Assembly (NCBI RefSeq): GCF_000283655.1
Contig: NC_016624.1
Location: forward strand, 310,001 to 374,000
Source: Azospirillum lipoferum 4B
GTDB lineage: Bacteria; Pseudomonadota; Alphaproteobacteria; Azospirillales; Azospirillaceae
Length of the DNA stretch: 64,000 bases
Reading direction: 5' to 3'
In this document: positions 42,024 through 63,126 of the stretch, piece by piece
Position numbering within the stretch: the stretch's first letter is position 1
How the letters are laid out: each line of letters starts with the position of its first letter
Position numbers and translations under genes: made by a program
Notes under the pieces: generated by a model
Seen by the model: the letters and a program-made list of their open reading frames with translations, nothing else
Told to the model about the DNA's origin: nothing
Databases searched by the model: none

Positions 42024-42085
42024 TCGCCGCTGGGGCATGGACGCTAGCTGTCTCCCCAAAGCAAACCTTTGATACAGGTCCTGCC

Positions 42086-47127: not shown

Positions 47128-48435
47128 ATGAACCGGGTGAGGAACAGGACGTCTTTCGTGCGCGACACCACCGACCGCAAGAACCTGTTCCTGCTCGTCC
47201 AGCTGCGTTGGCTCGCCGTCGTCGGGCAGATCGTGACGATCCTGATCGTGCATCTGCAGATGGGAATCCGGCTGCCGCTGCTGCCGATGGCGGCGGTGAT
47301 CTTCGTCCTGATCGCGCTGAACATCGCCAGCCTGATCCAGATCCGCCGCAGCGCCAGCGTTTCCAACACCCAGCTGTTCCTTGAGTTGCTGATCGACGTC
47401 TGGGCGCTGACCCTGCAGCTCTATCTCAGCGGCGGTGCATCCAACCCCTTCATATCGCTCTATCTTCTGCAGGTGGCGCTGGGTGCCGTGCTGCTGGAGG
47501 CCTGGTCGGCCTGGGCGCTGGTGCTGGTGGCGACCGCCGGCTTCACCTGGCTGATCGGCACCCACCAGCCGCTTCCCCTGCCCCATGCCCATGAGGGCGA
47601 GCTGTTCAGCCTGCACATCCAGGGAATGTTCATCTGCTTCGTACTGGCGGCGAGCCTGCTGGTCCCCTTCCTCACCCAGATCAACCGCAACCTGCGCGCC
47701 CGCGACGCCTATCTGGCGGAATTGCGCCAGCGCTCCATGGAAGAGGCGCACATTGTCCGCATGGGCCTGCTGGCGTCGGGCGCGGCGCATGAGCTGGGCA
47801 CGCCGCTCGCCACCCTGTCGGTGATCCTCAACGACTGGCGCCGCATGCCGTTGCTGATGTCCGATCCCGATCTGTCGGAGGAGGTGGCGGAGATGCAGAA
47901 CCAGATCGACCGCTGCAAGGCCATCGTGTCCGGCATCCTGCTGTCGTCGGGCGAGGCGCGCGGCGAGGGCACGGTGCGCACCACGGTGAAGGGCTTCCTC
48001 GACGATCTGGTGCAGGACTGGCTGTCCAGCCGCTCGCCGGCCCGCTTCGAGTACGACAACACCGTCGGCCCGCAGGAGCGGATGATCGCCGACCTTGCCC
48101 TGAAGCAGGTGCTGTTCAACGTGCTGGACAATGCGCTGGAGGCCTCGCCCGGCTGGATCGGCGTCGCGGCCCTGCGGCAGGGCGACAATCTGGTGGTGGC
48201 GGTCAACGATTCCGGTCCCGGATTCGACCCTGCCATCCTGGAGGAACTGGGCAAGCCCTACCGCTCCACCAAGAAGCGGCCGGGCAGCGGGCTCGGCCTG
48301 TTTCTGGTGGTCAATGTGCTGCGCAAGCTGGGCGGCACCGTCTCGGCCAAGAACCGGGCCGGCGGCGGCGCAACCGTCACGCTGACCCTGCCGCTGGCCG
48401 CCCTGTCGCCGGGAGGCTCCGATGGAGATGACTGA
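47128..48435 (+). CDS. regB: Redox-sensing histidine kinase RegB/PrrB/ActS
   Basis: 435 residues, six N-terminal membrane helices. The ubiquinone-binding motif GGASNPF is at 102-108. The phosphorylated His221 lies in SGAAHELGTPLATLSV and the redox-active Cys263 in QIDRCKAIVSGIL, positions nearly identical to His225 and Cys265 of Rhodobacter capsulatus RegB as I recall them. The ATP-binding domain follows (NVLDNALEASP, DSGPGFDPA, GSGLGLFLV). It phosphorylates RegA in response to quinone pool and redox state. It lies 77 nt after SURF1 and overlaps regA by 14 nt. Confidence 0.95.
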   Translation: MNRVRNRTSFVRDTTDRKNLFLLVQLRWLAVVGQIVTILIVHLQMGIRLPLLPMAAVIFVLIALNIASLIQIRRSASVSNTQLFLELLIDVWALTLQLYLSGGASNPFISLYLLQVALGAVLLEAWSAWALVLVATAGFTWLIGTHQPLPLPHAHEGELFSLHIQGMFICFVLAASLLVPFLTQINRNLRARDAYLAELRQRSMEEAHIVRMGLLASGAAHELGTPLATLSVILNDWRRMPLLMSDPDLSEEVAEMQNQIDRCKAIVSGILLSSGEARGEGTVRTTVKGFLDDLVQDWLSSRSPARFEYDNTVGPQERMIADLALKQVLFNVLDNALEASPGWIGVAALRQGDNLVVAVNDSGPGFDPAILEELGKPYRSTKKRPGSGLGLFLVVNVLRKLGGTVSAKNRAGGGATVTLTLPLAALSPGGSDGDD

Positions 48436-48988
48436 GCGGGAGACGCCCGAGCTGGACGGCGGTCCCCGCACCCTGCTGATCGTCGAGGACGACGAGTCCT
48501 TCGCGAAGGCGCTGCGCCGGTCCTTCGAGCGCCGCGGCTACGAGGTGCATGCCTGCGCCGGGCTGGAGGAGATGCGCGAGATCCTGCAGACGATGCAGCC
48601 CGACTATGCCGTGGTCGACCTGAAGCTCGCCACCGGGTCGGGGCTGGAATGCGTGAAGGAACTGCACGAGGCGGACGAGGACACCCGCATCGTCGTGTTG
48701 ACCGGCTTCGCCAGCATCGCCACCGCGGTGGAGGCGATCAAGCTCGGCGCCTGCCATTATCTCGCCAAGCCCTCCAACACCGACGACATCGAGGCGGCGT
48801 TCGACCGCACCGAAGGCGACACCTCAATCGCCCCCGCCGCCCGCACCACCTCGATCAAGAATTTGGAGTGGGAACGCATCCACGAAACGCTGGTGGAGAC
48901 CAACTTCAACATTTCGGAGACGGCAAGGCGGCTGGGCATGCATCGCCGCACGCTGGCCCGCAAGCTGGAGAAGAAGCGGGTGCCTTGA
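48422..48988 (+). CDS. regA: Redox response regulator RegA/PrrA/ActR
   Basis: 188 residues: receiver domain (about 16-130) with acidic pocket VEDDES, phosphoacceptor Asp66 in YAVVDLKLATGSG, and Lys of AKPSNTDD; then a Fis-like helix-turn-helix (NFNISETARRLGMHRRTLAR) that is nearly invariant in the family. RegA controls oxidases, carbon and nitrogen fixation and photosynthesis genes in other alphaproteobacteria. Position after cyoABCD suggests direct control of this oxidase, which is inference. Confidence 0.95.
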   Translation: MEMTERETPELDGGPRTLLIVEDDESFAKALRRSFERRGYEVHACAGLEEMREILQTMQPDYAVVDLKLATGSGLECVKELHEADEDTRIVVLTGFASIATAVEAIKLGACHYLAKPSNTDDIEAAFDRTEGDTSIAPAARTTSIKNLEWERIHETLVETNFNISETARRLGMHRRTLARKLEKKRVP

Positions 48989-49085: not shown

Positions 49086-49123
49086 CCCTCTCCCGCGATA
49101 GCGGGGGAGGGTTAGGGAGGGGG
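49086..49123 (-). repeat. Palindromic intergenic repeat, copy B (inverted)
   Basis: Reverse complement of copy A with few changes: CCCTCTCCCGCGATAGCGGG, then GGAGGGTTAGGGAGGGGG. The stop codon and last codons of the adjacent glycosyltransferase lie inside this copy. Confidence 0.6.
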
Positions 49124-50206
49124 CGAGAGCACTGAAGTGGCAACAGCGCTTCCCCGCTCCATCGCCGCCACCAGCTCCGTCTCCAGCGTCTCCGCCCGGT
49201 GCGCCGCCGTGTGCGCCGCCAGGATCCGCCGGCGCGCCTGTTCGCCGATCTCGCCCTCCGCGGCCGGGCGGCGCAGCACGTCCAGCACCTCGTCGGCGCT
49301 CGAAGCCAGGATGATCTCCCGCCCCGGCTCCAGCAATGTGTCGATGCCGTCCCAAATGTCGGAGACGATCGGCGTGGCGCAGGCCGCCGCTTCGAACAAG
49401 CGGACGCTGGGGCTGTAGCCGGCGCGGATCATGTCCTCGCGCGTCACGTTCAGGGTGAAGCGGCTCGCCGCGTAGAAGGCGGGATGGTCGGCCGGGGGCA
49501 CATGGTGCAGCCGTTCCACATTCGCCGGCCAGACGATGTCGTCGGGATATTGCGGCCCGGCGACGACGAAGCGCAGCTCCGGCGCCCGCCTCGCCGGCTC
49601 CAGCAACAGGCGGTCCAGCGTCGGCTGGCGGTCGATGCTGTAGGTGCCGAGATAGCTGAGATCCCAGCGCTTGGGCACCGGCAGCGGCGCATAGGCCTCC
49701 GCATCCACCGAGCAATAGAGCGCCCTTGCCGCTGGTGAGCCGTACCGTTCCATCAGCCGGTCGAGCGTCGGCCCGCCGGTGAAGGAGAAATACACATCGA
49801 AGCCGGGGATGACCTCCGGCGCGAGATACTCGTAATCGCCGCGTTCCAGCTTCGCCAGGGTCACCGGCGTGTCGATGTCGTAGAAGGCGACGACACCCCG
49901 CGCGGTCTCCTGCGCCCAACGCCCGACCGCGACACCCTCCGGCACATAGGATCCGACCAGCACCGCATCCGCCCCGGCCACCGCGGCGGTGAAACGCTTC
50001 AGATCCTCAAGGTCGCTGTAGAAGGCGAGTTCGCACCAACCCGGATTCGGCAGGTCGCGGTTGTTCGCGTACCAGGGAACGTCCCGCTCCAGGAACAGGA
50101 TCTCGTGCCCGCGCGCGGCGAAGGACTTCAGCAGCGCGCGGAAGGTGGTGGCATGCCCGTTGCCCCAGGAGGAGGACAGGCTGAGCCCAAGGACGACCAG
50201 CTTCAT
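49112..50206 (-). CDS. CgeB-like glycosyltransferase 3 (Glyco_trans_1_2 family)
   Basis: 364 residues, a GT-B type protein: N-terminal LGLSLSSSWGNGHATTFRAL, central WDLSYLGTYSIDRQPTLDRL and C-terminal FTLNVTREDMIRAGYSPSVR with LFEAAACATPIVSD, the CgeB/DUF3880-type donor-binding end. It starts at ATG 50206, overlapping the upstream paralogue by 4 nt. Its last residues (SPPP) and stop are supplied by the palindromic repeat. It is the last gene of the minus arm and presumably adds one sugar of the cluster's product. Confidence 0.82.
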   Translation of the reverse strand: MKLVVLGLSLSSSWGNGHATTFRALLKSFAARGHEILFLERDVPWYANNRDLPNPGWCELAFYSDLEDLKRFTAAVAGADAVLVGSYVPEGVAVGRWAQETARGVVAFYDIDTPVTLAKLERGDYEYLAPEVIPGFDVYFSFTGGPTLDRLMERYGSPAARALYCSVDAEAYAPLPVPKRWDLSYLGTYSIDRQPTLDRLLLEPARRAPELRFVVAGPQYPDDIVWPANVERLHHVPPADHPAFYAASRFTLNVTREDMIRAGYSPSVRLFEAAACATPIVSDIWDGIDTLLEPGREIILASSADEVLDVLRRPAAEGEIGEQARRRILAAHTAAHRAETLETELVAAMERGSAVATSVLSPPP

Positions 50207-51297
50207 GCCGCACTCCGTTCCCGGCGGGCGGCCAGCGCGCCGCGCAACAGCTGGTCCACCTCGACCGCACGGCGGGCATAGGTGTGGCCGGCCAGGATGC
50301 GGCGGCGCGCCGCCTCGCCGATGGCGCGGGAGCGTTCAGGCGTCAGCGCGCGCAGATGCTCGGTCACGTCCTGCCCGTCGCGGGCGACCAGCACCTCCTC
50401 GTCCGGGGCCAGGAACAGTTCCACCCCCTCCCAGGCATCGGTGATCAGGCAGGCGCCGGCGCCGGCCGCCTCGAACACGCGGGTGGCGGGGGAGAAGCCG
50501 ACCTCCGCCATGCTGTCGCGGGCGATGTTCAGCACCGCCTTGGCCGAGCTGTTGAAGGCGTTGTGATCGGCGGTGCCGACATGGCCGATGTGGGTGACGT
50601 TGGCCGGCAGGCCCTTGGTCTCCCAGCCGCTGCCGCCGATGATGTAGCGGGCATCCGGATTGCGCGCCGCCGGCTCCAGGAAGAAGCGCTCCACCCGCGC
50701 CTCGCGGTCGGGCAACCGGTTGCCGAGGAAGTTCAGGTCGGCGCGGAAGCGGTCCTGCGGCGGCACCGGATGGTGGGTGGACGGATCCAGCGCGTTGTAG
50801 ACCGGCCGGCAGACCGGCGCCCCCATCGCCTCATAGGCCGACACCACCGGCGGACCGCCGCCATAGGTCAGCACGAAGTCCAGCTCCGGCAGGCGTCGGC
50901 GCAGCACATGGTCGGGCGCCTGCCGCAGCTCCGCCAGGGTCGCCGGGGCGTCGACGTCCCAATAGATGCGCAGGGCCTGCGGGTCGGAGGCATCCATCAC
51001 GCCGTCCAGCAATTCGTCGTCGAAGACGCCGACGCCATTGGCCTTCACCACCACGTCGGCCTTGACCGCTTCGGCGATCACCGCACGGCAGGCTTCCGGC
51101 GTCGCGTCATAGACGACGACCTTGGCGTAGTCCGGCGGCTCGATGTCGCGGTGCTTCTGGCGGTCGAAGGCGTCCGGCTCGTAGAAGGTGATGTCCCAGC
51201 CATGCGTGGCCAGTTCGCTCAGCATGCCGCGGTAATAGGTGGCAGCGCCGTTCCAGTAGGAGGACAGCAGGCTGGACCCGTAAAAGGCCATCTTCAT
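50203..51297 (-). CDS. CgeB-like glycosyltransferase 2
   Basis: 364 residues, paralogous to its neighbours: MAFYGSSLLSSYWNGAATYY at the start, DLNFLGNRLPDREARVERFF in the middle, ARDSMAEVGFSPATRVFEAA and GAGACLITDAWEGVELFL at the end. ATGA overlaps on both sides place it in one translation-coupled series. Sugar donor and acceptor are unknown. Confidence 0.82.
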   Translation of the reverse strand: MKMAFYGSSLLSSYWNGAATYYRGMLSELATHGWDITFYEPDAFDRQKHRDIEPPDYAKVVVYDATPEACRAVIAEAVKADVVVKANGVGVFDDELLDGVMDASDPQALRIYWDVDAPATLAELRQAPDHVLRRRLPELDFVLTYGGGPPVVSAYEAMGAPVCRPVYNALDPSTHHPVPPQDRFRADLNFLGNRLPDREARVERFFLEPAARNPDARYIIGGSGWETKGLPANVTHIGHVGTADHNAFNSSAKAVLNIARDSMAEVGFSPATRVFEAAGAGACLITDAWEGVELFLAPDEEVLVARDGQDVTEHLRALTPERSRAIGEAARRRILAGHTYARRAVEVDQLLRGALAARRERSAA

Positions 51298-52418
51298 CGG
51301 GCGGACTCCTCAAGGACCGGTTCTTTTTCATTGCCGCGCAGGCTGCCGACGATGGACAGCAACTCGTCGACGCGATGGGCGCAGGTGTGGCGGGCGCGGA
51401 TCGTCTCCAGCCCGTTGCGGACCAGTTCGGCGCGCAGCCCCTCGTCGCGGTCGACGGCGCGCAGATGGTGGGCCATCTCCTCGCCGTCGCGGGCGAACAG
51501 GAAGTCGCGGCCGGGGCGGAACAGCCCTTCCGCATCGCTCCACGGCGCACTGACCAGCGGGATGCTGCAGGCCAGCGCCTCGAACACGCGGATGGTCGGG
51601 ATGCCCGGCAGCATTTCGACGTAGAAGCGGCGCGGCACATGGACGGTGACGCGGTGGCGGGCGAAGATCTCCGGCGCCCGCGCGTTCGGCAGCCAACCCC
51701 TGTAGGCGATGCCGTAACGCTTCAGCGTCGCCAGGGCATCCGCCGGATAGCGCACGCCGTAGATTTCCAGCGGCAGCCCGGCGGCCTTTGCCGGCGCGAA
51801 GAGGAAGCGCTCCAACTCCTCCGTCCGCTCGCCGTCACCCCAATTGCCGATCCACACCGCACCTTCACGTTGCCCTTCTTCGGCGGGCGGATGGAACAGC
51901 CGGATGTCGGCGGCCTCGTGCCAGACGAAGACGCGGCCTTCCCAACCCCAGCGGCGGTAGACCGCGGCCAGCGTCTCGCCGAAGGCCAGCACGCCGTCAT
52001 AGCCGGACAGGTCGAAGGCGTTGATCGCCTCGGGGTCGCTGACCGCGCGGTGGTGGGTGTCGTGGAACAGCAGGGTGAAGCGGCCGCCGCGCTTGCGCGC
52101 TTCGCCTACGGCGGCGACCAGCGCCGGGTCGTTCCATTCATGGACGATCACCAGATCGGCGCCGTCGCAAGCCGCCTCCACATCGAAGCCCTTCGGCATG
52201 CCCTGCGACGACAGCTCCGGATAGGCGCTGCGATAGGCGTCCAGCCCGGACTCGCCATGGTCGGCCAGCAGGTTCTGCAGGCTCCAGGCGCCTTCCGGCT
52301 CCAGCACCTGCACGTCATGGCCGCGGGCGATCAGGTCGCGCAGCACCCCGCGCAGGAAATGGGCGTTGCCGTGGTTCCAGCAGGAGGCCAGCGAATGGGT
52401 GAAATAGACGATCCTCAC
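51294..52418 (-). CDS. CgeB-like glycosyltransferase 1
   Basis: 374 residues: YFTHSLASCWNHGNAHFLRG, LVIVHEWNDPALVAAVGEAR, AVWIGNWGDGERTEELERFL and VPRRFYVEMLPGIPTIRVFE with ACSIPLVSAPWSDAEGLF. Same fold and length as the two downstream paralogues but clearly diverged, so each may add a different residue. It overlaps the GT4 gene by 4 nt. Confidence 0.82.
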   Translation of the reverse strand: MRIVYFTHSLASCWNHGNAHFLRGVLRDLIARGHDVQVLEPEGAWSLQNLLADHGESGLDAYRSAYPELSSQGMPKGFDVEAACDGADLVIVHEWNDPALVAAVGEARKRGGRFTLLFHDTHHRAVSDPEAINAFDLSGYDGVLAFGETLAAVYRRWGWEGRVFVWHEAADIRLFHPPAEEGQREGAVWIGNWGDGERTEELERFLFAPAKAAGLPLEIYGVRYPADALATLKRYGIAYRGWLPNARAPEIFARHRVTVHVPRRFYVEMLPGIPTIRVFEALACSIPLVSAPWSDAEGLFRPGRDFLFARDGEEMAHHLRAVDRDEGLRAELVRNGLETIRARHTCAHRVDELLSIVGSLRGNEKEPVLEESAR

Positions 52419-53566
52419 GCAATCACCTCCGAACGCACCGGGTGCGTCACCGACCGATAGACGTCGAGCATCCCGGCGGTGAGACGGTCCATGTCATAGC
52501 GGGCGGAGCGGCGGCGGGCGGCGGTGCCGAGCCGGCGCGCCTCCAGCGGGTCGTCGAGCAGCCGGCGCAGGGTCGCGGCCAGTGCCGCGGCATCGCCCGG
52601 ATCGGCGAAGATGGCGGCGCCGTCCCATAATTCGCGGAAGCTGGCGATGTCCGACAGCACCAGCGCGCAGCCGGCCTGTGCCGCTTCCAGCACCGTCAGC
52701 CCGAAGGGTTCATACAGCGGCAGCGAGGCGAAGACCGGCGCCCGCGCCATCCATCCGGCGACCGACGCACCGTCCAGCCGCCCCAGCGCCCGGGCATGGG
52801 TCAGCCCGACGCGGTGCCCGGTCGGGCTTTCCAGCGGCCCGGCGGCGAACACCGGCACGTCCAGCAACTTGGCCGCCGCGTCCAGCAGTTCGACGTTCTT
52901 GCCCGAATCCCACAGCCGCCCGGCGGTGAAGACGAAGCGTTCCCGCCCCATCGCTGCGCGGCGGGGACCGGCCTTGCGGGTATAGCGCCCGTTGCGGACC
53001 ACCACCGGCGGCGCCACGCCGTAGAGTGCCGCGGTCGCATCGGCGAAGGCGGCGCTGGGCGCCACCAGCACGTCGCAGGCCCGATAGCCCCGGCGCAGCA
53101 GCTCCGTCCGCCAGCGGAAATCCTCCGGCATCCCGCCGCCGCGCACCGCTGCCCACCAGCTCGCCATGCAGGAATGGCAGACGCCGACGACCGGCATGGT
53201 GAAGCCGGCGTCGGCGGCCAAGGCCGGGCTGTTCAGATGCACGACATCGGGACCGAGCCTTGCTGCCAGATCGCCCAGCGCCTCCGCCGTGCGGCGCACC
53301 GCGGCCTCATTGGGGGCGGTCCAGTCGAGCGGCAGACCGGTGTCGATCAGCTCCAGCCCGTCCACCGCGGCGGCGGCGGCGACCTGATCGGGGTGGGGCG
53401 ACGGTCCCAGCACCGCCAGCGTCACCCGTGTCCCCTGCCCCGCCAGTTCGCGCGCCAGATCCAGCGCATAGGTCCACACCCCGCCGACACTGTCGGCCGT
53501 CATCAGCACATAGGGGGGTTCCGCAGGCGGCAGTTTTCTTTGGGCACTTGTCAGCGGCAGGAGCAT
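52415..53566 (-). CDS. Glycosyltransferase family 4
   Basis: 383 residues, GT-B fold. N-terminal acceptor domain (MTADSVGGVWTYALDLAREL) and C-terminal nucleotide-sugar domain (FVFTAGRLWDSGKNVELLDA) with the E-x7-E motif EPFGLTVLEAAQAGCALVLS. It is a retaining transferase of unknown sugar. ATG 53566 follows GGAGG; the gene overlaps the radical SAM gene by 16 nt. Confidence 0.88.
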   Translation of the reverse strand: MLLPLTSAQRKLPPAEPPYVLMTADSVGGVWTYALDLARELAGQGTRVTLAVLGPSPHPDQVAAAAAVDGLELIDTGLPLDWTAPNEAAVRRTAEALGDLAARLGPDVVHLNSPALAADAGFTMPVVGVCHSCMASWWAAVRGGGMPEDFRWRTELLRRGYRACDVLVAPSAAFADATAALYGVAPPVVVRNGRYTRKAGPRRAAMGRERFVFTAGRLWDSGKNVELLDAAAKLLDVPVFAAGPLESPTGHRVGLTHARALGRLDGASVAGWMARAPVFASLPLYEPFGLTVLEAAQAGCALVLSDIASFRELWDGAAIFADPGDAAALAATLRRLLDDPLEARRLGTAARRRSARYDMDRLTAGMLDVYRSVTHPVRSEVIA

Positions 53567-54843
53567 GCCGCCTCCAGCTCCGTCAGCGGCAAGGGCTCGT
53601 CCTCCTGGATGTCGCTCAGGCGTTCGAACTGGCCAAGGTAATGCTCGTGCGCCCGCTCCCACGCCCGGTCGTCCGGCTCGCCCCACAGGCGACGGTAATC
53701 GGGCGAGGCCGGATAGGGGTAGAGCGGCACCGGGTCGTTGGCCCACACCCCGGCGGCCAGCAGCTTCTCCCGCCAGGCCTTCACCATGTCGGCATCGTCG
53801 CCGGCCACGGCGATCAGATTGGCCTGGACGAAGGGCACGCTGCGCCGGGCATGGATCAGCCGGTCGGCCAGATCGTCGGTGCTCATCCGGCATTTCTTGT
53901 CGAGCGAGGCGCGGCCTTCCTCGGTCAGGCTTTCCACCCCGGCCTCGATCGACACGCAGCCGGCAGCCCCCAGCAGGTCGAGCATTTCCGGCTTCCACAG
54001 ATCGATGCGCGTCTGCACGCCGAACTCGATGGGCCGCTCGACCAGCGCTTCCAGCAGGTCGCGCCGGGGCAGGAAGATCTCGTCGATGAAATAGACGTAG
54101 CGCACACCGGCCGCGATCAGCCCGTCGATCTCCTCCAGGATGATGGCTGTGTCGCGCCGCCGGTACTGGTCGCGGAAATCGATCTTGGCGCAGAAGCTGC
54201 AGTTGTAGGGACAGCCGCGCGACGCCTCCACCTCCGCCCCCGGCCCGACCGGTTCGGTACCGTAACGGTGGTGGTGGTGCGGGTGGCGCTGCAGCCACTC
54301 AACAGGCCAGGACAGCGCCGGCAAGTCGGTGAAGCGCGTGGCATGCGGTCCGCCGGTCACCACCAGATCGCCGTCGCGATGGAAGGCCAGCGACGGAATT
54401 TCTTCCAGCGCCGCAGCTTCCGCCAGCTTGGCGACGATCTCCTCACACTCCCCGCGCACCACCAGATCGACGCCGAGCTTGCCCAAGGTCGGCGCCGGGG
54501 TGGTGGAACCGTGCGGGCCGACCGCGACGGTTCGCCCGCCGCGCCCGCCCAGCGCTGTCAGGAACTCGCGCGGCACGCGCAGTTCCGGCTGGGCGCAGCG
54601 CCAGAACAGGTAGGTCGGCGCCGTGGTCAGCACGGTCATGCCGGGCGTAAAGGCGGCGACCCGCTCCGCCATCTCCGCGTTCGACAGGCCGTCCAGCGCG
54701 CCGTCCAGCAGCAGCACCTCGTGACCGGCCCGCTCCAGCAGCGCCTTGCTATACCCCAGCTCCAGCGGCAGATGCGCTTCGCGGCATCCGAAATAGATGC
54801 TGTGGTCGAAGCTCCAGGCCGGGTTGACCAGCGCAACCCTCAT
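53551..54843 (-). CDS. B12-binding-domain radical SAM enzyme
   Basis: 430 residues. The N-terminal ~170 residues form a cobalamin-binding-type Rossmann domain (VALVNPAWSFDHSIYFGC, LLLDGALDGLSNAEMAERVA). The radical SAM core begins at RGCPYNCSFC, with Cys211, Cys215 and Cys218 binding the 4Fe-4S cluster, followed by GVRYVYFIDEIFLPRRDLLE and VSIEAGVESLTEEGRASLDK. Such enzymes methylate or rearrange unactivated carbons. I recall a TIGRFAM model for a B12/radical SAM protein of a 'rhizo-twelve system' that this may match. It overlaps the upstream epimerase by 1 nt (TGATG). Confidence 0.88.
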   Translation of the reverse strand: MRVALVNPAWSFDHSIYFGCREAHLPLELGYSKALLERAGHEVLLLDGALDGLSNAEMAERVAAFTPGMTVLTTAPTYLFWRCAQPELRVPREFLTALGGRGGRTVAVGPHGSTTPAPTLGKLGVDLVVRGECEEIVAKLAEAAALEEIPSLAFHRDGDLVVTGGPHATRFTDLPALSWPVEWLQRHPHHHHRYGTEPVGPGAEVEASRGCPYNCSFCAKIDFRDQYRRRDTAIILEEIDGLIAAGVRYVYFIDEIFLPRRDLLEALVERPIEFGVQTRIDLWKPEMLDLLGAAGCVSIEAGVESLTEEGRASLDKKCRMSTDDLADRLIHARRSVPFVQANLIAVAGDDADMVKAWREKLLAAGVWANDPVPLYPYPASPDYRRLWGEPDDRAWERAHEHYLGQFERLSDIQEDEPLPLTELEAACSCR

Positions 54844-55910
54844 CAGGCGGCCTCCACCGAAGGGGCGGCTTCCGGAACGCCGCTCTTCTCGGCCCGCAGC
54901 CATTCGGCCAGCAGCGCCACGCCGCGCTTCCAGTCGGTCGGCTCGGCCAAGCCCAAAGCCTGCCGCGCCGCGCGGGTGTCCGACACGTAATAGCGCTGGT
55001 CGCCGGCCCGCCAGTCGCCGAAGCCGACCTCCACCTTGCGCCCCATCAGATATTCGATATGGGCGATCAGCTGGCGCAGGCTGATGGCGTTCGCCGCCCC
55101 GCCGCCGAGATTGAAGGCATGGCCCTTCACCTGCTCGATCCGTTCCCAGGCGGAGACATAGGCCTGCACCGCATCGGCGGCGAACAGCACGTCGCGCACC
55201 TGCCGGCCGTCGCCGTAGATGGTGATCGGCTCGCCGTTCAGCGCGCGGATCAGGAAATGGGCGACCCAGCCCTGATCCTCGGTCCCCATCTGGCGCGGGC
55301 CATAGATGCAGCTCATCCGCAGCACCGCCGTCGGCAGGTCGAAACTGCGGGCGTAATCCAGCACATACTGGTCCGCCGCGCCCTTGGAGCAGCCATAGGG
55401 GGTGTGGAAGTCGAGCGGCCGCACCTCCGCCACGCCATGCGCGCGGATCGCCGGGTCGACCGGCGCATAGGCGTCGTCCACCAGCTCCAGGGCCACGTCG
55501 GCGAGGTCGCCATAGACTTTGTTGGTGCTGGCGAAGATCACCGGCGTCCGCCTGCCCTGGCGGCGCACCGCTTCAAGCAGGGACAGGGTGCCGCGGATGT
55601 TCACTTCGAAATCGTCGATGGGATCGACCATGCTGGTGGTCACCGCGACCTGGGCGGCCAGATGGAACACCGCCTTGGCGTCCTTGGCGGCATCGGCCAG
55701 CGCCTGTTCGTCGCGCAGGTCGGCGGTGACGGCGCTGATGCGCGACGGGTGGCGGGCCTGCAGCCAGCGCAGGTTCCGCTCCACCCCCGGACGGCGCAGC
55801 GCGTCATAGATCAGCACGTCATGCCCGTCCGACGCCAAGCGGTCGGCAAGGTTCGATCCGATGAAGCCGGCGCCGCCGGTGATCAGGACCGGAGTCTTGC
55901 TGCCGCTCAT
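54843..55910 (-). CDS. NAD-dependent epimerase (CDP-paratose 2-epimerase-like)
   Basis: 355 residues, extended short-chain dehydrogenase. NAD motif ITGGAGFIGSNLAD, catalytic region FASTNKVYGDLADVALELVD and YGCSKGAADQY (Tyr-x3-Lys). The STNKVYGD segment is typical of CDP-paratose/tyvelose 2-epimerase-like enzymes. It probably makes a nucleotide sugar for the adjacent glycosyltransferases. ATG 55910 overlaps the next upstream gene by 4 nt. Confidence 0.87.
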   Translation of the reverse strand: MSGSKTPVLITGGAGFIGSNLADRLASDGHDVLIYDALRRPGVERNLRWLQARHPSRISAVTADLRDEQALADAAKDAKAVFHLAAQVAVTTSMVDPIDDFEVNIRGTLSLLEAVRRQGRRTPVIFASTNKVYGDLADVALELVDDAYAPVDPAIRAHGVAEVRPLDFHTPYGCSKGAADQYVLDYARSFDLPTAVLRMSCIYGPRQMGTEDQGWVAHFLIRALNGEPITIYGDGRQVRDVLFAADAVQAYVSAWERIEQVKGHAFNLGGGAANAISLRQLIAHIEYLMGRKVEVGFGDWRAGDQRYYVSDTRAARQALGLAEPTDWKRGVALLAEWLRAEKSGVPEAAPSVEAA

Positions 55911-57019
55911 GCCACCAGACCCCGCTCTTCCAGCTCGCGGCGGGCGTCGGCGACGCGGTCCTGCGCCTCCTGCCGGGCGACCCATTCCGCCAGTTCGGCC
56001 AGACCTTCGGAGAAATTCTCCTTCCGGTCATAGCCCAGCACGGTGCGCGCCTTGGTCAGATCGGGGATGTTGTGGCGGATGTCGCCGGCCCGCGCCTTGC
56101 CGGTGATGTCCGGCGACAGGTCGGCGCGGCCCATCGAAGCGGCCTGCATCAGCGCCACCTCCTCCACCGTCCGCTCCTCGCCGGAGCCGATGTTGAACAC
56201 CTCGCCGTTGGCAGCCGGATTGTCCAGCGCCAGCAGGAAGGCACGGGCGACGTCGCGGACATGGACGAAGTCGCGGCGCTGCTGCCCATCTTCGAAGATC
56301 ATCGGGCGCTGGCCGTTGGCGATGCGCGAGGCGAAGATCGCCAGCACGCCGGTGTAGGGGTTCGACAGCGCCTGCCCCGGCCCATAGGCGTTCCACAGGC
56401 GAAGGGCCGAGCCCTCCATCCCGTACTGCGCGGTCAGCGTCAGGGTCAGCCGCTCCTGCACATATTTGCCGATGGCGTAGACCGATTTCAGCGCCGGGCG
56501 CTTGCTTTCCGGCGTGCGCACCGGCACCAGCGGCCGGCCCTGCCGGTCGAGCGGGTCCCAGCTGCCGTCGGGGTTGCGGGCGCCGCGGACGAGGTCCTCC
56601 ATCAGCGTGCCGTCGGCGGTGCGGTACAGCCCTTCGCCATAAATGCTCATGGACGAGGCGACGACGACGCGGCGCACCGGCTTGTCGATCAGGCGCTGGA
56701 ACAGCACGGCGGTGCCGTAGTCGTTCACCGAGGTGTAGCGGTCGACCGCATACATGCTCTGCCCGACGCCGACTTCGGCCGCGAGGTGGATCACCGAATC
56801 GACGCCTTCCAGCGCACGGGCGACCATGTCGTCGTCACGCACATCGCCGACCAGCAGTTCCACGTCGGCGTCCAGTTCGTCGGGACGCTGCCGCTTGGGG
56901 TGCACCTGTTCGATCAGACTGTCGAGCACCCGGACGCGGTCGCCGCGGGCAAGCAGAGCCTTGGCGACATGGCGGCCGATGAAGCCGGCGCCGCCAGTGA
57001 CGAGAACGGTCTCTCCCAC
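55907..57019 (-). CDS. NAD-dependent epimerase/dehydratase (UDP-glucose 4-epimerase-like)
   Basis: 370 residues. NAD motif VTGGAGFIGRHVAKALLARG, ASSMSIYGEGLYRTADGTLM with catalytic Ser and, later, SVYAIGKYVQERL (Tyr-x3-Lys). Arginine-rich QQRRDFVHVRDVARAFLLAL binds the nucleotide. The start is GTG 57019, with GGAGGG just upstream; the frame is open further without a site. First gene of the minus arm, divergent from the inositol-phosphate synthase gene. Confidence 0.87.
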   Translation of the reverse strand: MGETVLVTGGAGFIGRHVAKALLARGDRVRVLDSLIEQVHPKRQRPDELDADVELLVGDVRDDDMVARALEGVDSVIHLAAEVGVGQSMYAVDRYTSVNDYGTAVLFQRLIDKPVRRVVVASSMSIYGEGLYRTADGTLMEDLVRGARNPDGSWDPLDRQGRPLVPVRTPESKRPALKSVYAIGKYVQERLTLTLTAQYGMEGSALRLWNAYGPGQALSNPYTGVLAIFASRIANGQRPMIFEDGQQRRDFVHVRDVARAFLLALDNPAANGEVFNIGSGEERTVEEVALMQAASMGRADLSPDITGKARAGDIRHNIPDLTKARTVLGYDRKENFSEGLAELAEWVARQEAQDRVADARRELEERGLVA

Positions 57020-57343
57020 AAGTCCCTCCGAGGATTTCGATACGATTCTTGACGTTGACGTGCGGAAACAGAGGGCCAGGGCCTGCGGACATCGACACCG
57101 CGAGCCCCCCGCCGATCTCCGCAAGTTGCCCAGGGCACCCTGTGCGGTTTTATTTCGGGACCGACTCGCAACTCCTTGGCGGAGTCACGACGGCCGCACT
57201 GTCGACGTTAACACCGCCGTTAAAAATTGCGCACCTTGTCCAAAAGGCGTGCCACCAACGACCGATCTTCCGATGATTCCTTTTCATGTCTACAAATAAC
57301 CATGCTCCGTGGAGCGACGTGCATTTAAGGATGGGAGAGCTCC
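57020..57343. promoter_or_regulatory. Divergent promoter region of the glycoconjugate cluster
   Basis: 324 nt between the two arms. It is less GC-rich near 57170-57300 and contains paired GTTAA elements around 57205-57220 and TTGACG near 57050. It presumably drives both arms. No RNA gene was seen. Confidence 0.5.
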
Positions 57344-58450
57344 GTGACTGGTAAAAAGCTCCGGGTAGCAATCGCAGGCGTCGGAAATTGTGCATCGTCT
57401 TTTGTGCAAGGGATATGCTATTACGCCGATGCCAAAGCCAATGAGCCGCCCCCGGGGCTTATGACTGTCGATCTTGGCGGGTATCACGTTGGAGACATCG
57501 AGATCTCTGCGGCCTTCGATGTTGCAGCATCGAAAGTCGGGTTCGATGTCGGAGAGGCTATTTTCGCACCTCCCAATAATACTTTCCGCTTTGCCAAGCC
57601 CCCGCGCTTCGGCGTGCCGGTGGAGCGGGGTCCGACGCTGGACGGCATCGGCAAATATCTGGCCGGCGACATCCCCGAATCGGAGCAGCGGCCGGTGAAT
57701 GTGGCGGAAACCCTGCGCCGCACCGGCACCGACATCCTGGTCTCCTACCTGCCGGTCGGGTCGCAGCAGGCCACGGAATTCTACGCCGAACAGGCGCTGG
57801 AGGCCGGCTGCGCCTTCGTCAACTGCATCCCGGTCTTCATCGCCTCCAACCCGGTCTGGGCGCGGCGCTTCGCCGAGCGCGGCCTGCCGATCATCGGCGA
57901 CGACATCAAGAGCCAGGTCGGCGCCACCATCGTCCACCGCATGCTGGCCAACCTGTTCCGCGAGCGCGGCGTGCGGCTGGACCGCACCTATCAGCTGAAT
58001 TTCGGCGGCAACACCGACTTCAAGAACATGCTGGAGCGCGAGCGTCTGGAATCGAAGAAGATCTCCAAGACCCAGGCGGTCACCAGCCAGCTCGACGTGC
58101 CGCTCGATCCGGACGACGTGCATGTCGGCCCCAGCGACCATGTGCCGTGGCTGACCGACCGCAAATGGGCGCATATCCGGCTGGAAGGCACCACCTTCGG
58201 CGGCGTGCCGCTGTCTGTGGAGTTGAAGCTGGAGGTCTGGGACAGCCCCAACTCGGCCGGCATCGTCATCGACGCGGTGCGCTGCGCCAAGCTGGCGCTC
58301 GACCGCGGCATCGCCGGCCCGCTGGTCGGCCCCTCCAGCTATTTCATGAAGTCGCCGCCCGAACAGTTCACCGACAATGAAGCACGGGAACGCACGCTGC
58401 GCTTCATCGCCGGGGAGCCTCTTGAGACCAAGCCGACCCGCCTGATGTGA
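57344..58450 (+). CDS. ino1: Inositol-3-phosphate synthase (myo-inositol-1-phosphate synthase)
   Basis: 368 residues. It converts glucose 6-phosphate to 1D-myo-inositol 3-phosphate with NAD+. NAD motif [20 protein letters not shown], then [57 protein letters not shown] and [20 protein letters not shown], all typical of the actinobacterial/archaeal-type enzyme. It starts at GTG 57344 with GGGAGAG upstream. It heads the plus arm and overlaps the phosphatase gene (GTGA), suggesting that an inositol unit enters the cluster's product. The first ~250 nt have lower GC than the rest. Confidence 0.92.
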
Positions 58451-59067
58451 GCGTCGGCATGGAAACCATCTTCATCCTGGTGCGCCACGGTTCGCACGAC
58501 CGGCTGGGCTCGGTCCTGTGCGGCCGCATGGCCGGAGTGACGCTGAGCGCCCAAGGCTTGGTGGAGGCCGAGTCGCTGGCCGACCGCCTGTCGTCACAGC
58601 GCCTGACCGCCGTACTGTCCAGCCCGCTGGAACGCGCCGTCGAGACCGCCACCCCCATCGCGGAGCGGCAGGGCCTCCCCCTGACCATCGAACCGGCGCT
58701 GAACGAACTCGACCTCGGCGCCTGGAGCGGCAAGCGGTTCGAGGAGCTGCATAGCGACCCCGCCTGGGACCTGTGGAACCGGGCGCGCAGCCATGCCCGC
58801 CCCACTCCCGGTGAGACTCCAGGAGAGTCGATGGCGGAGGCGCAAACCCGGATCGCAGCATTGCTCGACCGGCTGCGCCGCGCCCATCCCGGCGGCACGC
58901 TGGCGCTGGTCAGCCATGGCGACATCATCAAGGCGGCGCTGGCCCACGCCATGGGCCTGCCGCTCGACTTTTACGGACGATTCGAAATCAGCCCGGCCTC
59001 CCGCAGCGTTCTGATCGCCGGCGATTGGGGGCTGAAGGTCCACAGCATCAACGAGGGTGCGGCATGA
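58447..59067 (+). CDS. Histidine phosphatase family protein (phosphoglycerate-mutase-like)
   Basis: 206 residues. Catalytic His in [10 protein letters not shown], then [20 protein letters not shown], the acid [15 protein letters not shown] and second His in [20 protein letters not shown]. It starts at GTG 58447, overlapping the synthase stop, or at ATG 58459. From position it could remove phosphate from inositol phosphate, since no inositol monophosphatase is nearby. That is inference. Confidence 0.88.
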
Positions 59068-59849
59068 CGAGCCTGACGGCCGACCAGATCCGCGAACGCG
59101 TCGCAGAACTCGGCGACTGGTTCCACAACATCGACCTCAACGGCGTGCGCACGGCGCCCGACCACTTCCTCAACGACTATCCGAACGTGAAGTGGAAGCG
59201 CTTCGAGCATGCGGTGCCGAAGGATCTGACCGGCCGCACCGTCCTCGACATCGGCTGCAACGGCGGCTTCTACTCCATCGAGATGAAGCGCCGCGGCGCC
59301 GACCGGGTGGTCGCCATCGACTTCGACGACCGCTATCTGGCCCAGGCCAAATTCGCCGCCGAGGTGACCGGCCAGGACATCGAATTCCACAAGATGTCGG
59401 TCTATGACGTCGCCAAGCTCGGCGAAAGCTTCGACGTCGTGCTGTTCATGGGCGTGCTCTATCACCTGCGCCACCCGCTGCTGGCACTGGACCTGATCCA
59501 CGACCATGTCGCCAGGGATCTGATGATCTTCCAGTCGATGCAGCGCGGCTCGGCCGAGGTGGCGCCGGTGCGCACGGATTACGACTTCTTCGAACAGGAT
59601 CACTTCGACGATCCCGGCTATCCGAAGCTGCATTTCATCGAACACGACTACGCCCGCGACTGGACCAACTGGTGGGCGCCGAACGCGGCCTGTGCCGAGG
59701 CGATGCTGCGCAGCGCCGGCTTCGCCATCACCGAGCATCCGGAACGCGAGGTCTATGTCTGCCGCCGGGTCGACCGCCCGACGGAGGCGGGGGCGGTCTA
59801 TCCCGCCCAGCCGAAAGAAGACGCCGTGAAGAAAGGGACCGTGGGATGA
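59064..59849 (+). CDS. Class I SAM-dependent methyltransferase (Rta_06860/TIGR04290-like)
   Basis: 261 residues. SAM-binding motif VLDIGCNGGFYSIEMKRRGA, then VVAIDFDDRYLAQAKFAAEV and FDVVLFMGVLYHLRHPLLAL; it looks like the methyltransferase family I recall as TIGR04290 and resembles tRNA wobble-uridine CmoB-like enzymes. Context argues for a small-molecule or sugar target. ATGA overlaps on both sides tie it to the phosphatase and glycosidase genes. Confidence 0.85.
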   Translation: MTSLTADQIRERVAELGDWFHNIDLNGVRTAPDHFLNDYPNVKWKRFEHAVPKDLTGRTVLDIGCNGGFYSIEMKRRGADRVVAIDFDDRYLAQAKFAAEVTGQDIEFHKMSVYDVAKLGESFDVVLFMGVLYHLRHPLLALDLIHDHVARDLMIFQSMQRGSAEVAPVRTDYDFFEQDHFDDPGYPKLHFIEHDYARDWTNWWAPNAACAEAMLRSAGFAITEHPEREVYVCRRVDRPTEAGAVYPAQPKEDAVKKGTVG

Positions 59850-60775
59850 TCGAAGCCGCCAAGATCTGGAACGAGCCGAACAACAAGTCGCACTGGGATC
59901 CCAACCTCGACCCCGAATGGGACCTGTTCGCCCGCATGACAATCCTGGCCGGACAGGCGATCCGGGCGGAGAATTCCACCATCACCCGCGTGCTGGGCGG
60001 CATGTCTCCCATCGACCCGTCCTTCGTCCGCCGGCTCGACGAGCGCGGCGTGCTCGACGAGGTGGACGTGGTGGCGGTCCACGGCTTCCCGCTCGACTGG
60101 AATCTCTGGCAGATCCACGACTGGCCGAACAAGATCGACGAGATCCGCGCCGTCACCGACAAGCCGGTCTGGGTGACTGAGGCCGGCGTGTCCTCCTTCG
60201 GCGCCGAGGAGGTCCAGGCCTGGGGCGTCAAGCGCACCGCCGAACTGCTGATCGGCAAGGTGCCGCGCATCCACTGGTACAGCCTGTACGACCTGCCCAG
60301 CCATTGGGAGGCCACCACCCGCCACAAGGAGGCGGAAGGGTCGTCCTACTATCGCCACTTCCACATGGGGCTGCTGCGCGCCGACGGCATGCCGAAACCG
60401 GCGGTGGAGGCCTTCGCCCCCTATGCCGGGCAGATGGGCATCTGCCAGTGGTTCCATTACGAGGATCACCGGCTGGATGACGCGGTGGCCTGGCTGAAGC
60501 GGCTGGGAGTGCGGCACCTGCGCACCGGCCTGTCCTGGGCCGACAGCTTCCGCCCCAACGCGCTCGACTGGTTCGACCGCCAGATGGAGGCGCTGGCCGA
60601 TTTCGACGTGACCGTCACCTTCTGTTTCACCCCCGAACACCGCGGCGTCGAACCCCACCACACCAGCCCGCCCCAGGTGGCGGAGGAGTTCGCCGAGTTC
60701 TGCGCCGCCATGATCCGCCGCTACGGCACCACGCGGACGGCCGATTCGGCGGCGTCGATGGCGGCGGTGGGGTAA
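59846..60775 (+). CDS. Clan GH-A glycosidase-like protein, apparently circularly permuted
   Basis: 309 residues. The acid/base motif WNEPNN (Glu10) stands at the very N-terminus and the nucleophile motif WVTEAGVSS at about 107. Normally these lie after some 150 residues of barrel strands 1-3. Those strands appear instead at the C-terminus: LKRLGVRHLRTGLSWADSF, FDVTVTFCFTPEHRGVEPHH and SPPQVAEEFAEFCAAMIRRY. The halves thus seem swapped. It is annotated as beta-xylosidase-like by resemblance; no signal peptide. It is co-translated with the methyltransferase (ATGA) and ends the plus arm. Confidence 0.78.
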   Translation: MIEAAKIWNEPNNKSHWDPNLDPEWDLFARMTILAGQAIRAENSTITRVLGGMSPIDPSFVRRLDERGVLDEVDVVAVHGFPLDWNLWQIHDWPNKIDEIRAVTDKPVWVTEAGVSSFGAEEVQAWGVKRTAELLIGKVPRIHWYSLYDLPSHWEATTRHKEAEGSSYYRHFHMGLLRADGMPKPAVEAFAPYAGQMGICQWFHYEDHRLDDAVAWLKRLGVRHLRTGLSWADSFRPNALDWFDRQMEALADFDVTVTFCFTPEHRGVEPHHTSPPQVAEEFAEFCAAMIRRYGTTRTADSAASMAAVG

Positions 60776-60967
60776 GCCCTCGAGCGGTTCCGATGGAACG
60801 GTCACGGGGCCGCGGCTCTCCGCAGGATCGGTGCAGTCCATCGCCGCGACGGTGATGCCACGGGACGACCCGCCTTCGCCGATTGAAGGCGGGATCCTCG
60901 CGGCCGAAATGCGGTCTGGCGCGTTCAGACAGTGGACGTGAACGCGACAGACCCGGACGGACGGTCG

Positions 60968-62059
60968 ATGGACAAACCGGCAGAGCGGCGGCTTCAGGAC
61001 AGGCGCCGGGCGAAACCTTCCCTACGCAAGGGTCGGCTGCTCCATGTCCGTTCCGGCCTGTCGGCGGAAAAGACGCTGCTGGTGCGCATCGGCATCGTCA
61101 TCGTGCTGCTCACGCTGGTCATCGCGGTGTTCTGGTTCGACCGCGACGGGCTGAGGGACAATCTGGACGATCACATCAGCTTTCCGGACATCCTCTATTT
61201 CGCCATGATCACGGTGACCACCGTCGGCTATGGCGACATCGTGCCGGTCAGCCACACCGCCCGCCTGATCGACGCCTTCGCCGTCACGCCGATCCGCATC
61301 TTCATCTGGTTCATCTTCCTCGGCACCGCCTACGAGTTGGTGGTGCAGAGGATCGTGGAGGAATTCCGCTTGAGCCGCATTCAGAAGCAGTTGCAAGACC
61401 ACATCGTGCTGTGCGGCTTCGGGCACAGCGGGTTCATCGCCGCACAGGAAACCGTCGCGAAGGGCCATCCCGCCGACCGCGTCGTCGTCATCGACGATTC
61501 GGAGGACCGCATCCATCTGGCGGCCGAAGCCGGTTTCGTCGGCCTGCTGGGCGACGCCACCAGCGAGGACACGCTGATCAAGGCCTGCGTCGGCAAGGCC
61601 AAGGCGGTGATCGTCAGCACCGGGCGCGACGACACCACCATCCTGGTGGTCCTGACGGTGCGCCACCTGTCCGCCGCCACCAAGATCGTCGCCAGCATCA
61701 AGCAGGAGGAGAACATCAAGCTCGCCAACCTCAGCGGCGCCGATCTGGTGGTGTCGCCGCCCAGGATCGGCGGCTATCTGATGGCCGACGCGGTGGAGAC
61801 GAGCCACGCCACCCCCTTCCTGTGCGACCTGATGTCGGCCGGCGGCAAGATGGTGCTGAGCGAGCGGCGGGCGGAAGCGGACGAGGTCGGCCGGACCATG
61901 GCGGAGATCACCGGCGGCATGGTGGTGCAGGTCCACAGCCATGGCCGCAACATCCCCTTCACCGAGCGCAACCGCTACATCATCCAGGCGCAGGACACGC
62001 TGCTGATCATCAGCCCGCCGGGGGACGGAAAGATCCCCTCTCCCGCTCACCCCCTGTAA
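60968..62059 (+). CDS. Potassium channel with TrkA-N/RCK domain
   Basis: 363 residues: two membrane helices (about 36-56 and 97-118) flanking a pore with selectivity filter TVTTVGYGD, then a cytoplasmic RCK domain starting HIVLCGFGHSG and a TrkA-C-like end (EITGGMVVQVHSHGRNIPFT). A ligand-gated K+ channel of the Kch/MthK kind. ATG 60968 is preferred over GTG 60932; neither has a strong ribosome site. Its 3' end overlaps the convergent gene by 13 nt. Confidence 0.85.
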   Translation: MDKPAERRLQDRRRAKPSLRKGRLLHVRSGLSAEKTLLVRIGIVIVLLTLVIAVFWFDRDGLRDNLDDHISFPDILYFAMITVTTVGYGDIVPVSHTARLIDAFAVTPIRIFIWFIFLGTAYELVVQRIVEEFRLSRIQKQLQDHIVLCGFGHSGFIAAQETVAKGHPADRVVVIDDSEDRIHLAAEAGFVGLLGDATSEDTLIKACVGKAKAVIVSTGRDDTTILVVLTVRHLSAATKIVASIKQEENIKLANLSGADLVVSPPRIGGYLMADAVETSHATPFLCDLMSAGGKMVLSERRAEADEVGRTMAEITGGMVVQVHSHGRNIPFTERNRYIIQAQDTLLIISPPGDGKIPSPAHPL

Positions 62060-63126
62060 TGCCGGCCGAAGCGGTTGTTCAGAAAGGCGTCCAGCGGCAC
62101 CTGTTCCTGCCGGATGAAGCCCGCCTGCGGGATGGAGCCCTCGCGCAGCAGGTCCAGCACGGCGCAGATGCCGGCGGCGGTGGTGACCTGGATGGCGCTC
62201 CAGCTGCGGCCGGCGATGGGCTTGCTGTAGATCTTGGTGGCGAAGGTCTCCTGCCGCAATTCGCCCTCCTGCATGCCGGTGGCGGTCGCCAGCACCAGAA
62301 CCACGTCCTGCAGGGTCAGCGGCACCGCGGTTTCCAGCACGTCCTTCAGCAGGTGGCGCCGCTCGCCCAGCCGCAGGTCGCGGATCAGCAGGCGGACGAT
62401 GTCGCGGTGGCCGGGATAACGCACCGTCTTGTAATCGAGGTTCCGCACCTTGCCGGCCAGCGTCTCGCACAAGGAGCCCAGCCCGCCCGAGGTGTTGAAC
62501 GCCTCGTAATCGACGCCGTCCAGCGCAAAGCGCTCGTCGCCCTCCAGCGGCATCACCTCGTGCTGACGGCCGTCGATGATGGCCTCGCACGGGTTGCAGT
62601 ACTCGTTGATCAGCCCGTCGGTGCTCCAGGTCAGATTGTATTTCAGGGCGTTGGTCGGGTATTGCGGCAGGGCGCCGACGCGCAGATGCAGGTTGTGCAG
62701 CTCGTCGAAGCGGCGGGCGAGGTCATGCCCGACGATGGAGATGAAGCCCGGCGCCAGACCGCATTGCGGGATCAGCGCGGTGTCGGCGGTCTCCGCCAGC
62801 AGCTTCACCTTGCGGGTGGCGGCGACATCCTCGGTCAGGTCGAGGTAATGGGCGCCGGCCGCGACGGCGGCAGTGGCGATGGCCGGGGTCAGGGTGAAGG
62901 GGCAGGCGCTCAGCACCGCATGCTGGCCGGCCATGGCGGCACGCAGCGAAGACGGATCCTCCACATCGACGCGCGTCACCCGCAGCCCGGCACGCTCGGC
63001 GCGGGACAGCAGCGCCTCGTCCCGGTCGCCGATGGTGACGGCGAAATCTTCGGTCTCGGACAGCAGCGTGCCGATCATCGACCCGATCTTGCCGGCACCC
63101 AGAACCAGAACCTTCATCGTTGCCAT
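62047..63126 (-). CDS. Saccharopine dehydrogenase family protein
   Basis: 359 residues. NAD(P) motif VLVLGAGKIGSMIGTLLSET, then VLSACPFTLTPAIATAAVAA, AHYLDLTEDVAATRKVKLLA and LIPQCGLAPGFISIVGHDLA, typical of the saccharopine dehydrogenase/reductase group (LYS9-like C-terminal domain). It may act in lysine catabolism or on a related amino acid. ATG 63126 (or 63117) follows AGGAGCGGGAG. It overlaps the potassium channel gene tail-to-tail. Confidence 0.85.
   Translation of the reverse strand: MATMKVLVLGAGKIGSMIGTLLSETEDFAVTIGDRDEALLSRAERAGLRVTRVDVEDPSSLRAAMAGQHAVLSACPFTLTPAIATAAVAAGAHYLDLTEDVAATRKVKLLAETADTALIPQCGLAPGFISIVGHDLARRFDELHNLHLRVGALPQYPTNALKYNLTWSTDGLINEYCNPCEAIIDGRQHEVMPLEGDERFALDGVDYEAFNTSGGLGSLCETLAGKVRNLDYKTVRYPGHRDIVRLLIRDLRLGERRHLLKDVLETAVPLTLQDVVLVLATATGMQEGELRQETFATKIYSKPIAGRSWSAIQVTTAAGICAVLDLLREGSIPQAGFIRQEQVPLDAFLNNRFGRHYRG

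Follow-up and report, generated by a model that had tools for sequence, protein, structure and literature searches.

A conserved sugar-building gene cassette of Azospirillum lipoferum 4B and its relatives, and its circularly permuted glycosidase

What do bacteria make with four glycosyltransferases, a B12-binding radical S-adenosylmethionine (SAM) enzyme, an inositol-3-phosphate synthase-like protein (INO1) and a glycosidase-like protein encoded side by side? The question is raised by a 64,000-nucleotide stretch of Azospirillum lipoferum 4B (contig NC_016624.1, positions 310,001 to 374,000; hereafter the window), in which eleven intact genes, A to K, occupy positions 49112–60775. Seven of them, A-B-C-D-E-F-G, form an operon on the minus strand; the other four, H-I-J-K, form a second one on the plus strand, and the two diverge from a gap of about 300 bp (Table 1). 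An earlier note on this DNA, made from the sequence alone, had read them as one divergent cluster for an inositol or sugar conjugate. We show by computation that the eleven genes are a real, dedicated and co-occurring sugar-building cassette, that gene F is of the CDP-tyvelose 2-epimerase type, that gene K encodes a circularly permuted domain of the clan GH-A type and that stress-type promoter sites accompany the cassette in many relatives. For the product we favor, at a probability of roughly 40%, a cytoplasmic pathway to an O-methylated hetero-oligosaccharide protectant, built on inositol where INO1 is present. A conserved metabolic gene set with no known product, present in Azospirillum, Mesorhizobium and other bacteria of roots and soil, thus becomes testable.

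A dedicated, co-occurring cassette

All nine internal junctions of the two operons overlap, where the earlier note had claimed this for almost all genes: by 4, 4, 4, 16, 1 and 4 bases in the left operon, with the start of E taken as 54843, and by 4, 4 and 4 bases in the right. The open reading frame (ORF) of E opens at 54903; its homologues begin near 54843, the likelier start. Starts were corrected to 53566 for D and 59846 for K, and alternatives exist for G (Table 1) and H (57344 or 57404). Against four relatives (L002, L004, L006 and L007), the ratio of nonsynonymous to synonymous substitution (dN/dS) is about 0.04 to 0.32 for all eleven genes, which indicates that each is maintained by purifying selection. 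The closest relatives of E are in Azospirillum, and the nearest genome compared shares 21% of the 31-mers of the window.

The domain assignments made earlier hold, among them those of the four glycosyltransferases, the B12/radical SAM protein, the phosphatase, the methyltransferase and the glycosidase-like protein. Both hidden Markov models (HMMs) that had been proposed as a check match in NCBIfam release 20, with E at 722 bits against TIGR04295 (cut-off 400) and J at 389.6 bits against TIGR04290 (cut-off 300). E carries a CxxxCxxC cluster motif and a class B cobalamin radical SAM fold; its putative B12-binding domain scores 29.9 bits against PF02310 (Pfam cut-off 32.1), and AprD4, an enzyme not known to use B12, is among the top matches. 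The two NCBIfam families are named without any product. TIGR04295 is there called B12_rSAM_oligo, and the name "rhizo-twelve" given in the earlier note was found in no paper searched; a search for Rta_06860 likewise gave no match. One Methylobacterium locus, L017, has exactly twelve colinear genes, the eleven plus a UDP-glucuronate decarboxylase-like short-chain dehydrogenase/reductase (SDR), and may explain the name.

Relatives were scanned at one genome per species, and we analyzed 80 loci with a close E relative, of 128 confirmed. Genes at these loci are our own codon-usage calls, not curated, on flanks that stop at 10 kb; clustering of ORFs without gene calling was overwhelmed by antisense ORFs and dropped. 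Homologues are not scattered: at 60 of the 80 loci the seven genes of the left operon stand side by side on a single strand with their order unchanged, so their linkage is not chance. The other 20 comprise four loci without F, seven Methylobacterium loci without B or A after C, one with an extra called ORF, one with a split C and seven cut by contig ends. Where at least 9 kb is available on either side of E (63 loci), G, D, C and E are always present, followed by F (59), A and B (57 each), H (46), a third SDR (SDR3; 43), I (42), J (33) and K (24), the counts for J and K being too low because the flanks end at 10 kb.

Co-occurrence extends to the level of genomes. TIGR04295 is above its cut-off in 13 of 289 evenly drawn alphaproteobacterial genomes, and TIGR04290 in 14, namely in all 13 of these and in 1 of the 276 others (Fisher p ~1e-21). 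A K-like glycosidase (E ≤ 1e-6) is found in 12 of the 13 and in 0 of the 276 (Fisher p ~2e-20). A phylum-wide draw returned TIGR04295 in 10 of 398 genomes, all of them Alphaproteobacteria; L035 and L078, both among the 80 loci, are from metagenome bins that bear the labels Gemmatimonadaceae and Myxococcales.

Gene K, a circularly permuted glycosidase

The N-terminus of K reads MIEAAKIWNEPNN and contains WNEPN, which we take to be the acid/base motif, whose usual place in clan GH-A barrels is strand 4. WVTEAG, presumably the nucleophile motif, lies mid-protein, and the C-terminal segment resembles strands 1 to 3. Glu10 of WNEPN and Glu112 of WVTEAG are invariant in 14 aligned homologues. Across 38 K copies, WNEPN always falls within the first 20 residues, and 37 have WV[TS]E[AV]G, the other reading WISEAG; the copy totals of K, and those of F below, count a single gene at both L022 and L094. 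With phmmer, residues 3–189 of K align weakly to residues 132–324 of PslG (E 0.019), and residues 201–293 to PslG 26–128, not significantly; against Pfam, K stays under the gathering score.

A domain fused to F in some relatives provides an unpermuted reference, as the glycosidase half of these fused genes has the normal order. An HMM of this domain was built from 8 of 10 long F proteins; the two left out, L072:8169-10061 and L078:7914-10004, have first halves with neither a K match nor the WNEP acid/base motif. Native K matches the model in two blocks, residues 3–184 to positions 112–291 (115 bits) and residues 196–295 to positions 8–109 (53 bits). When the halves of K were exchanged in a script, the result was a single match of 179 bits over positions 8–291. 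The swapped block order recurs in 38/38 K copies (37 distinct genes), and the strand order of GH39/PslG, β1 to β8, is not found. A structure model of K (predicted local distance difference test 82.3, predicted template modeling score 0.84) has eight strands, starting at residues 2, 47, 75, 108, 142, 197, 224 and 254. As in PslG/GH39, both catalytic Glu motifs stand on a (β/α)8 barrel; unlike PslG/GH39, K begins at strand 4 and finishes after strand 3. Structure searches with K returned mixed barrels only, among them a GH5 and a GH10 chain that did not stand out, a result that speaks neither for nor against the clan. The swapped blocks make K a circularly permuted domain of the clan GH-A type.

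In the 13 TIGR04295 genomes, permuted K is a free gene in six, and the fused unpermuted form is present in six. Locus L078 has both a fused domain without WNEP and a separate permuted K with WNEPN. A permuted enzyme with an unpermuted counterpart in the cassettes of other lineages makes a clear case of enzyme barrel rearrangement.

A precedent for the breakpoint exists in the GH70 glucansucrases, which are transglycosidases. PMC11046441 gives their order as β4 to β8, then β1 to β3, relative to GH13, so the breakpoint relative to the parent family is identical to that of K; the parent family of GH70 is GH13, and the likeness to K is one of breakpoint. Among the matches listed in our literature search on permuted glycosidases, we recognized no permuted clan GH-A enzyme besides the GH70 case. 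From the common breakpoint, and from the fusion of the unpermuted form to a biosynthetic epimerase, one could argue that K is mainly a transglycosidase that moves a glycosyl unit during assembly rather than a hydrolase; as the common breakpoint may be coincidence, we consider this rather improbable. A broader proposal would be somewhat unlikely in its entirety: that natural circular permutation at the GH70 point gave rise, in K, to a new glycoside hydrolase family of clan GH-A, in place of the unpermuted domain that lineages without INO1 have fused to the C-2 epimerase, and that K takes part, perhaps by transglycosylation, in the stress-induced synthesis of an undescribed class of methylated, radical-modified glycosyl-polyol protectants common to plant-associated and soil Alphaproteobacteria.

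Modules, INO1 and promoters

Comparison of the loci resolves two modules. Module 1 is G-F-E-D-C-B-A, often with SDR3, which is closely related to UDP-glucuronate decarboxylase (4GLL, 354 bits). Module 2 comprises INO1, the phosphatase, a further CgeB-type glycosyltransferase (GT5), a nucleotidyltransferase, J, K, a PIG-L deacetylase, a GT4 glycosyltransferase (GT4b), a GNAT protein and a second methyltransferase (MT2). It is complete in L095 and L096, lacks PIG-L in L097 and lacks INO1 and the phosphatase in L085; its families were assigned from scans of other copies (L046 and L066). From genome to genome, the modules may be neighbors, diverge from each other or sit on contigs distant from one another, and INO1 lies apart from K in three Methylobacterium genomes (L089–L094). 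The window holds module 1 minus SDR3 plus a shortened module 2. The Azospirillum form therefore shares with other TIGR04295/TIGR04290 cassettes the two models above cut-off and the gene order, and differs in having no SDR3, GT5, nucleotidyltransferase or PIG-L-to-MT2 segment in the cassette. Genomes of the L001–L011 group, one of them titled Roseomonas, carry a gene resembling UDP-glucuronate decarboxylase (UXS-like) elsewhere in seven of seven cases; the nucleotidyltransferase has no close relative in 12 genomes of this group (best 27–32% identity), and PIG-L was absent at E ≤ 1e-6 from seven, in a search that had no positive control.

INO1 was searched in 21 genomes, all chosen for holding the cassette: 13 have it and 8 do not (E ≤ 1e-3). 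In the even draw, 10 of the 13 TIGR04295 genomes were searched and three have INO1. In six of the eight genomes without it (L081–L083 and L086–L088), the F gene spans 640–685 codons and opens with the glycosidase domain. The inositol synthase is not part of the cassette core, and its absence from 8/21 genomes marks the inositol part as a lineage-specific acceptor supply or add-on. The inositol conjugate of the earlier note is accordingly not supported as a general description, though it may hold where INO1 is present. The two natural forms, with and without INO1, also tell the core genes from those concerned with inositol.

Two proteins recur beside the cassette. One, c0, of about 98 amino acids, is found at 28 loci (e.g., L014:7540-7836), in many of them immediately before G; the other, c1, of about 590 amino acids, adjoins the cassette at 20 of 80 loci (e.g., L007:2297-4063). 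Neither the L014 copy of c0 nor the L007 copy of c1 matched an NCBIfam or Pfam family at the thresholds used. DNA topoisomerase IB-like genes lie inside the cassette region at L032:3029-4120, L081:17701-18822, L082:2385-3401, L083:2119-3135 and L087:14015-15040, the L082 copy confirmed by Pfam and the other four judged by eye from sequence.

General-stress promoters recognized by EcfG have a consensus of the type GGAAC-N16/17-CGTT. A first strict scan for CGTT found sites in 12/77 G and 8/51 H regions; with intergenic limits, 19/146 upstream regions had one, or 19/144 excluding the window. In a permuted-consensus control, 2/299 patterns exceeded the strict count (54 and 44 regions), and we consequently adopted the relaxed form GGAAC-N17-GTT. 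In relatives, 85 of the 144 regions that precede G, H or c0 contain it. This motif was picked after seeing the data, and its support is the spacing peak: across spacings of 8 to 28, there are 85 regions at 17, 7 at 18, 12 at 24 and 0–4 elsewhere, counts that are not independent as the loci are related. At spacing 17 or 18, sites precede G in 24/25 Mesorhizobium, 0/11 Azospirillum-group and 13/33 other regions, H in 21/22, 0/11 and 7/13, and c0 in 22/24 Mesorhizobium and 4/5 other regions; one or more sites are found at 45 of 74 loci. Stress-type promoter sites thus stand on the operons of many relatives. Near Mesorhizobium cassettes, the L036 copies of clusters c5 and c2 encode an HWE histidine kinase and a regulator whose PhyR-like domain scores 28.5 bits (threshold 27), and an extracytoplasmic function (ECF) sigma factor adjoins G in L081–L083, its L082 copy scoring 54 bits against a PhyR sigma-like domain. 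Scans for sigma-70 promoters and terminators found no more than in shuffled sequence.

A proposed pathway and its alternatives

Of the two epimerases claimed earlier, one is well placed. The best solved relatives of F are the CDP-tyvelose 2-epimerases TaTyvE (9RL0, 279 bits) and 1ORR (259 bits). PMC13098431 lists among the catalytic and substrate-binding residues of TyvE Thr-Tyr-Lys, the Asn of TNK, Gln205 and Trp207, and calls a VAM segment highly conserved. Aligned to TyvE, the window F keeps TNK, YxxxK and the Gln and Trp of the DQGW loop; among 82 F copies, 81 have TNK, 81 DQGW (the other EQGW) and all 82 PYGxSK. Where TyvE has VAM, the window F has VAV (QVAVT in 54/82 copies), and no dideoxy-sugar genes were recognized in the cassette. 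As the VAM segment is not kept, our claim is that F works like a CDP-tyvelose 2-epimerase, not that it is strictly a member; the best prediction is that it would epimerize C-2 of a glucose-type nucleotide sugar. The second, G, is a GalE-like SDR, NAD-dependent as is F, whose reaction is unsettled.

In the pathway that we favor, H would form inositol phosphate and I would dephosphorylate it to a polyol acceptor, in those lineages that have INO1. F would invert C-2 of a putative nucleotide-sugar substrate from glucose-type to mannose-type, a step that homology supports well, and G could supply a further nucleoside diphosphate sugar. UDP-xylose may come from the UXS-like SDR, encoded in the cassettes of most relatives and elsewhere in Azospirillum genomes. 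D would prime the chain and C, B and A extend it; J would O-methylate it, and E would act by radical chemistry on a carbon of a sugar or cyclitol, C-methylation being the likeliest outcome. K, as a putative retaining β-glycosidase, would trim, recycle or transglycosylate the product. Among the eleven genes there is no transporter or polymerase, as the earlier note had seen, and its methylated oligosaccharide, O-methylated in our version, was a sound guess.

We tentatively read the product as an intracellular stress or desiccation protectant because the operons of many relatives carry general-stress-type promoters. It would be comparable to fagopyritols, plant galactosides that are made by enzymes other than those of the cassette. 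Like them and other glycosyl-inositols, it would be a glycosylated cyclitol, a class tied to desiccation tolerance in PMC11907402. Two handles are gained: a C-2 epimerase with a predicted reaction, and stress-type promoters in Mesorhizobium that hint when to look.

Several observations weigh against this reading. Besides the INO1-less genomes and the altered VAM segment of F, cassette membership varies: in Methylobacterium, seven loci have no B or A following C (L012, L015, L018, L020, L024, L025 and L028), F is outside the cassette at L008–L011, with a homologue of 55–56% elsewhere in those genomes, and L080 (G300) has no K-like glycosidase at E ≤ 1e-3, neither free nor fused. The promoter signal is uneven. 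The window has no EcfG-like site within one mismatch, so that the stress reading for Azospirillum is transferred from relatives; the relaxed motif is absent from L001–L011, where a site with one mismatch is seen in L001 and L002 and in no other, from eight Methylobacterium loci scored (L012, L015, L017, L020, L022, L024, L025 and L028) and, altogether, from 29 of 74 loci. It also occurs in 91/493 other upstream regions of the same loci, so that part of the signal may reflect a stress-gene neighborhood. Finally, literature searches, including combinations of radical SAM, CgeB, inositol synthase, PhyR/EcfG and epimerase, yielded no paper that we recognized as dealing with the system; one match, PMC12583986, deals with hopanoids and gave no link to the cassette.

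The product could instead be a glycolipid, with D glycosylating phosphatidylinositol or a lipid-linked cyclitol as in the synthesis of phosphatidylinositol mannosides, and A to C extending the head group at the inner leaflet. INO1 is present in the window, and the sole two Protein Data Bank matches of D at E ≤ 1e-10 are PimA-type phosphatidylinositol mannosyltransferases, but the match is weak (45 bits, residues 250–374 of D), and the six genomes with fused F and no INO1 still keep D. No lipid-modifying or transport gene was recognized among the extra clusters c0–c6, present at 10 or more of 80 loci and judged by eye except for scanned copies of c0, c1, c2, c4 and c5, and the transporter-like clusters c17 and c20 occur at just 5–6 loci. 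We regard a glycolipid as rather unlikely. Less probable still is a secreted secondary metabolite, an aminocyclitol or pseudo-oligosaccharide, for which E would act like AprD4 or a sugar C-methylase: the patchy presence of the cassette fits this as well as a protectant, but by eye no exporter or resistance gene was recognized among the extra clusters at 10 or more loci, and relatives carry stress-type promoters.

The logic of mycothiol biosynthesis takes inositol, a glycosyltransferase, a phosphatase, a PIG-L deacetylase and a GNAT acyltransferase. A product like mycothiol, a small glycoside for redox or storage use, is nonetheless very unlikely: the cassette shares INO1, a GT4 enzyme and a phosphatase with that pathway, L095 and L096 hold INO1, the phosphatase, GT4b, PIG-L and GNAT in one operon, and H resembles the mycothiol INO1 model TIGR03450, but at 542.7 bits, below its cut-off of 638, while no MshC-like ligase was seen among the cassette genes scanned (a genome-wide search was not made), PIG-L was missing from the seven L001–L011-group genomes in the search described above, and the cassette, unlike the mycothiol set, has four glycosyltransferases, a radical SAM enzyme, a methyltransferase and a dispensable INO1.

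Table 1. Coordinates of the cassette features in the window
Feature	Positions	Strand	Match or remark
A: CgeB-type glycosyltransferase	49112..50206	-	PF13524
B: CgeB-type glycosyltransferase	50203..51297	-	PF13524
C: CgeB-type glycosyltransferase	51294..52418	-	PF13524
D: GT4 glycosyltransferase	52415..53566	-	weak PimA-type PDB match
E: B12-binding radical SAM protein	53551..54843	-	TIGR04295
F: SDR, CDP-tyvelose 2-epimerase type	54843..55910	-	279 bits to 9RL0
G: GalE-like SDR, reaction unsettled	55907..57043	-	start 57043 or 57019
Divergent promoter region	57044..57343	.	conserved blocks, eight aligned Azospirillum sequences
H: inositol-3-phosphate synthase-like	57344..58450	+	TIGR03450 below cut-off
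I: histidine phosphatase, branch 1	58447..59067	+	
J: SAM methyltransferase	59064..59849	+	TIGR04290
K: circularly permuted clan GH-A-type (PslG/GH39-like) glycosidase	59846..60775	+	

Just past gene A (window 47128–48988) lie genes for a RegB/ActS-like kinase and a RegA/ActR-like regulator, both below their NCBIfam cut-offs. Because such a pair adjoins the cassette in only three of 11 Azospirillum-group relatives (L002, L004 and L006), this redox two-component pair is probably unrelated to it. Upstream of the pair is a gene for a CyoA/QoxA-type quinol oxidase subunit II (window 42005–43195). Downstream of K (window 60932–63174) are genes for a K+ channel with a TrkA_N domain and a saccharopine-dehydrogenase-like protein, and homologues of the K+ channel occur near K in seven relatives (L001–L003, L005, L008, L009 and L011).

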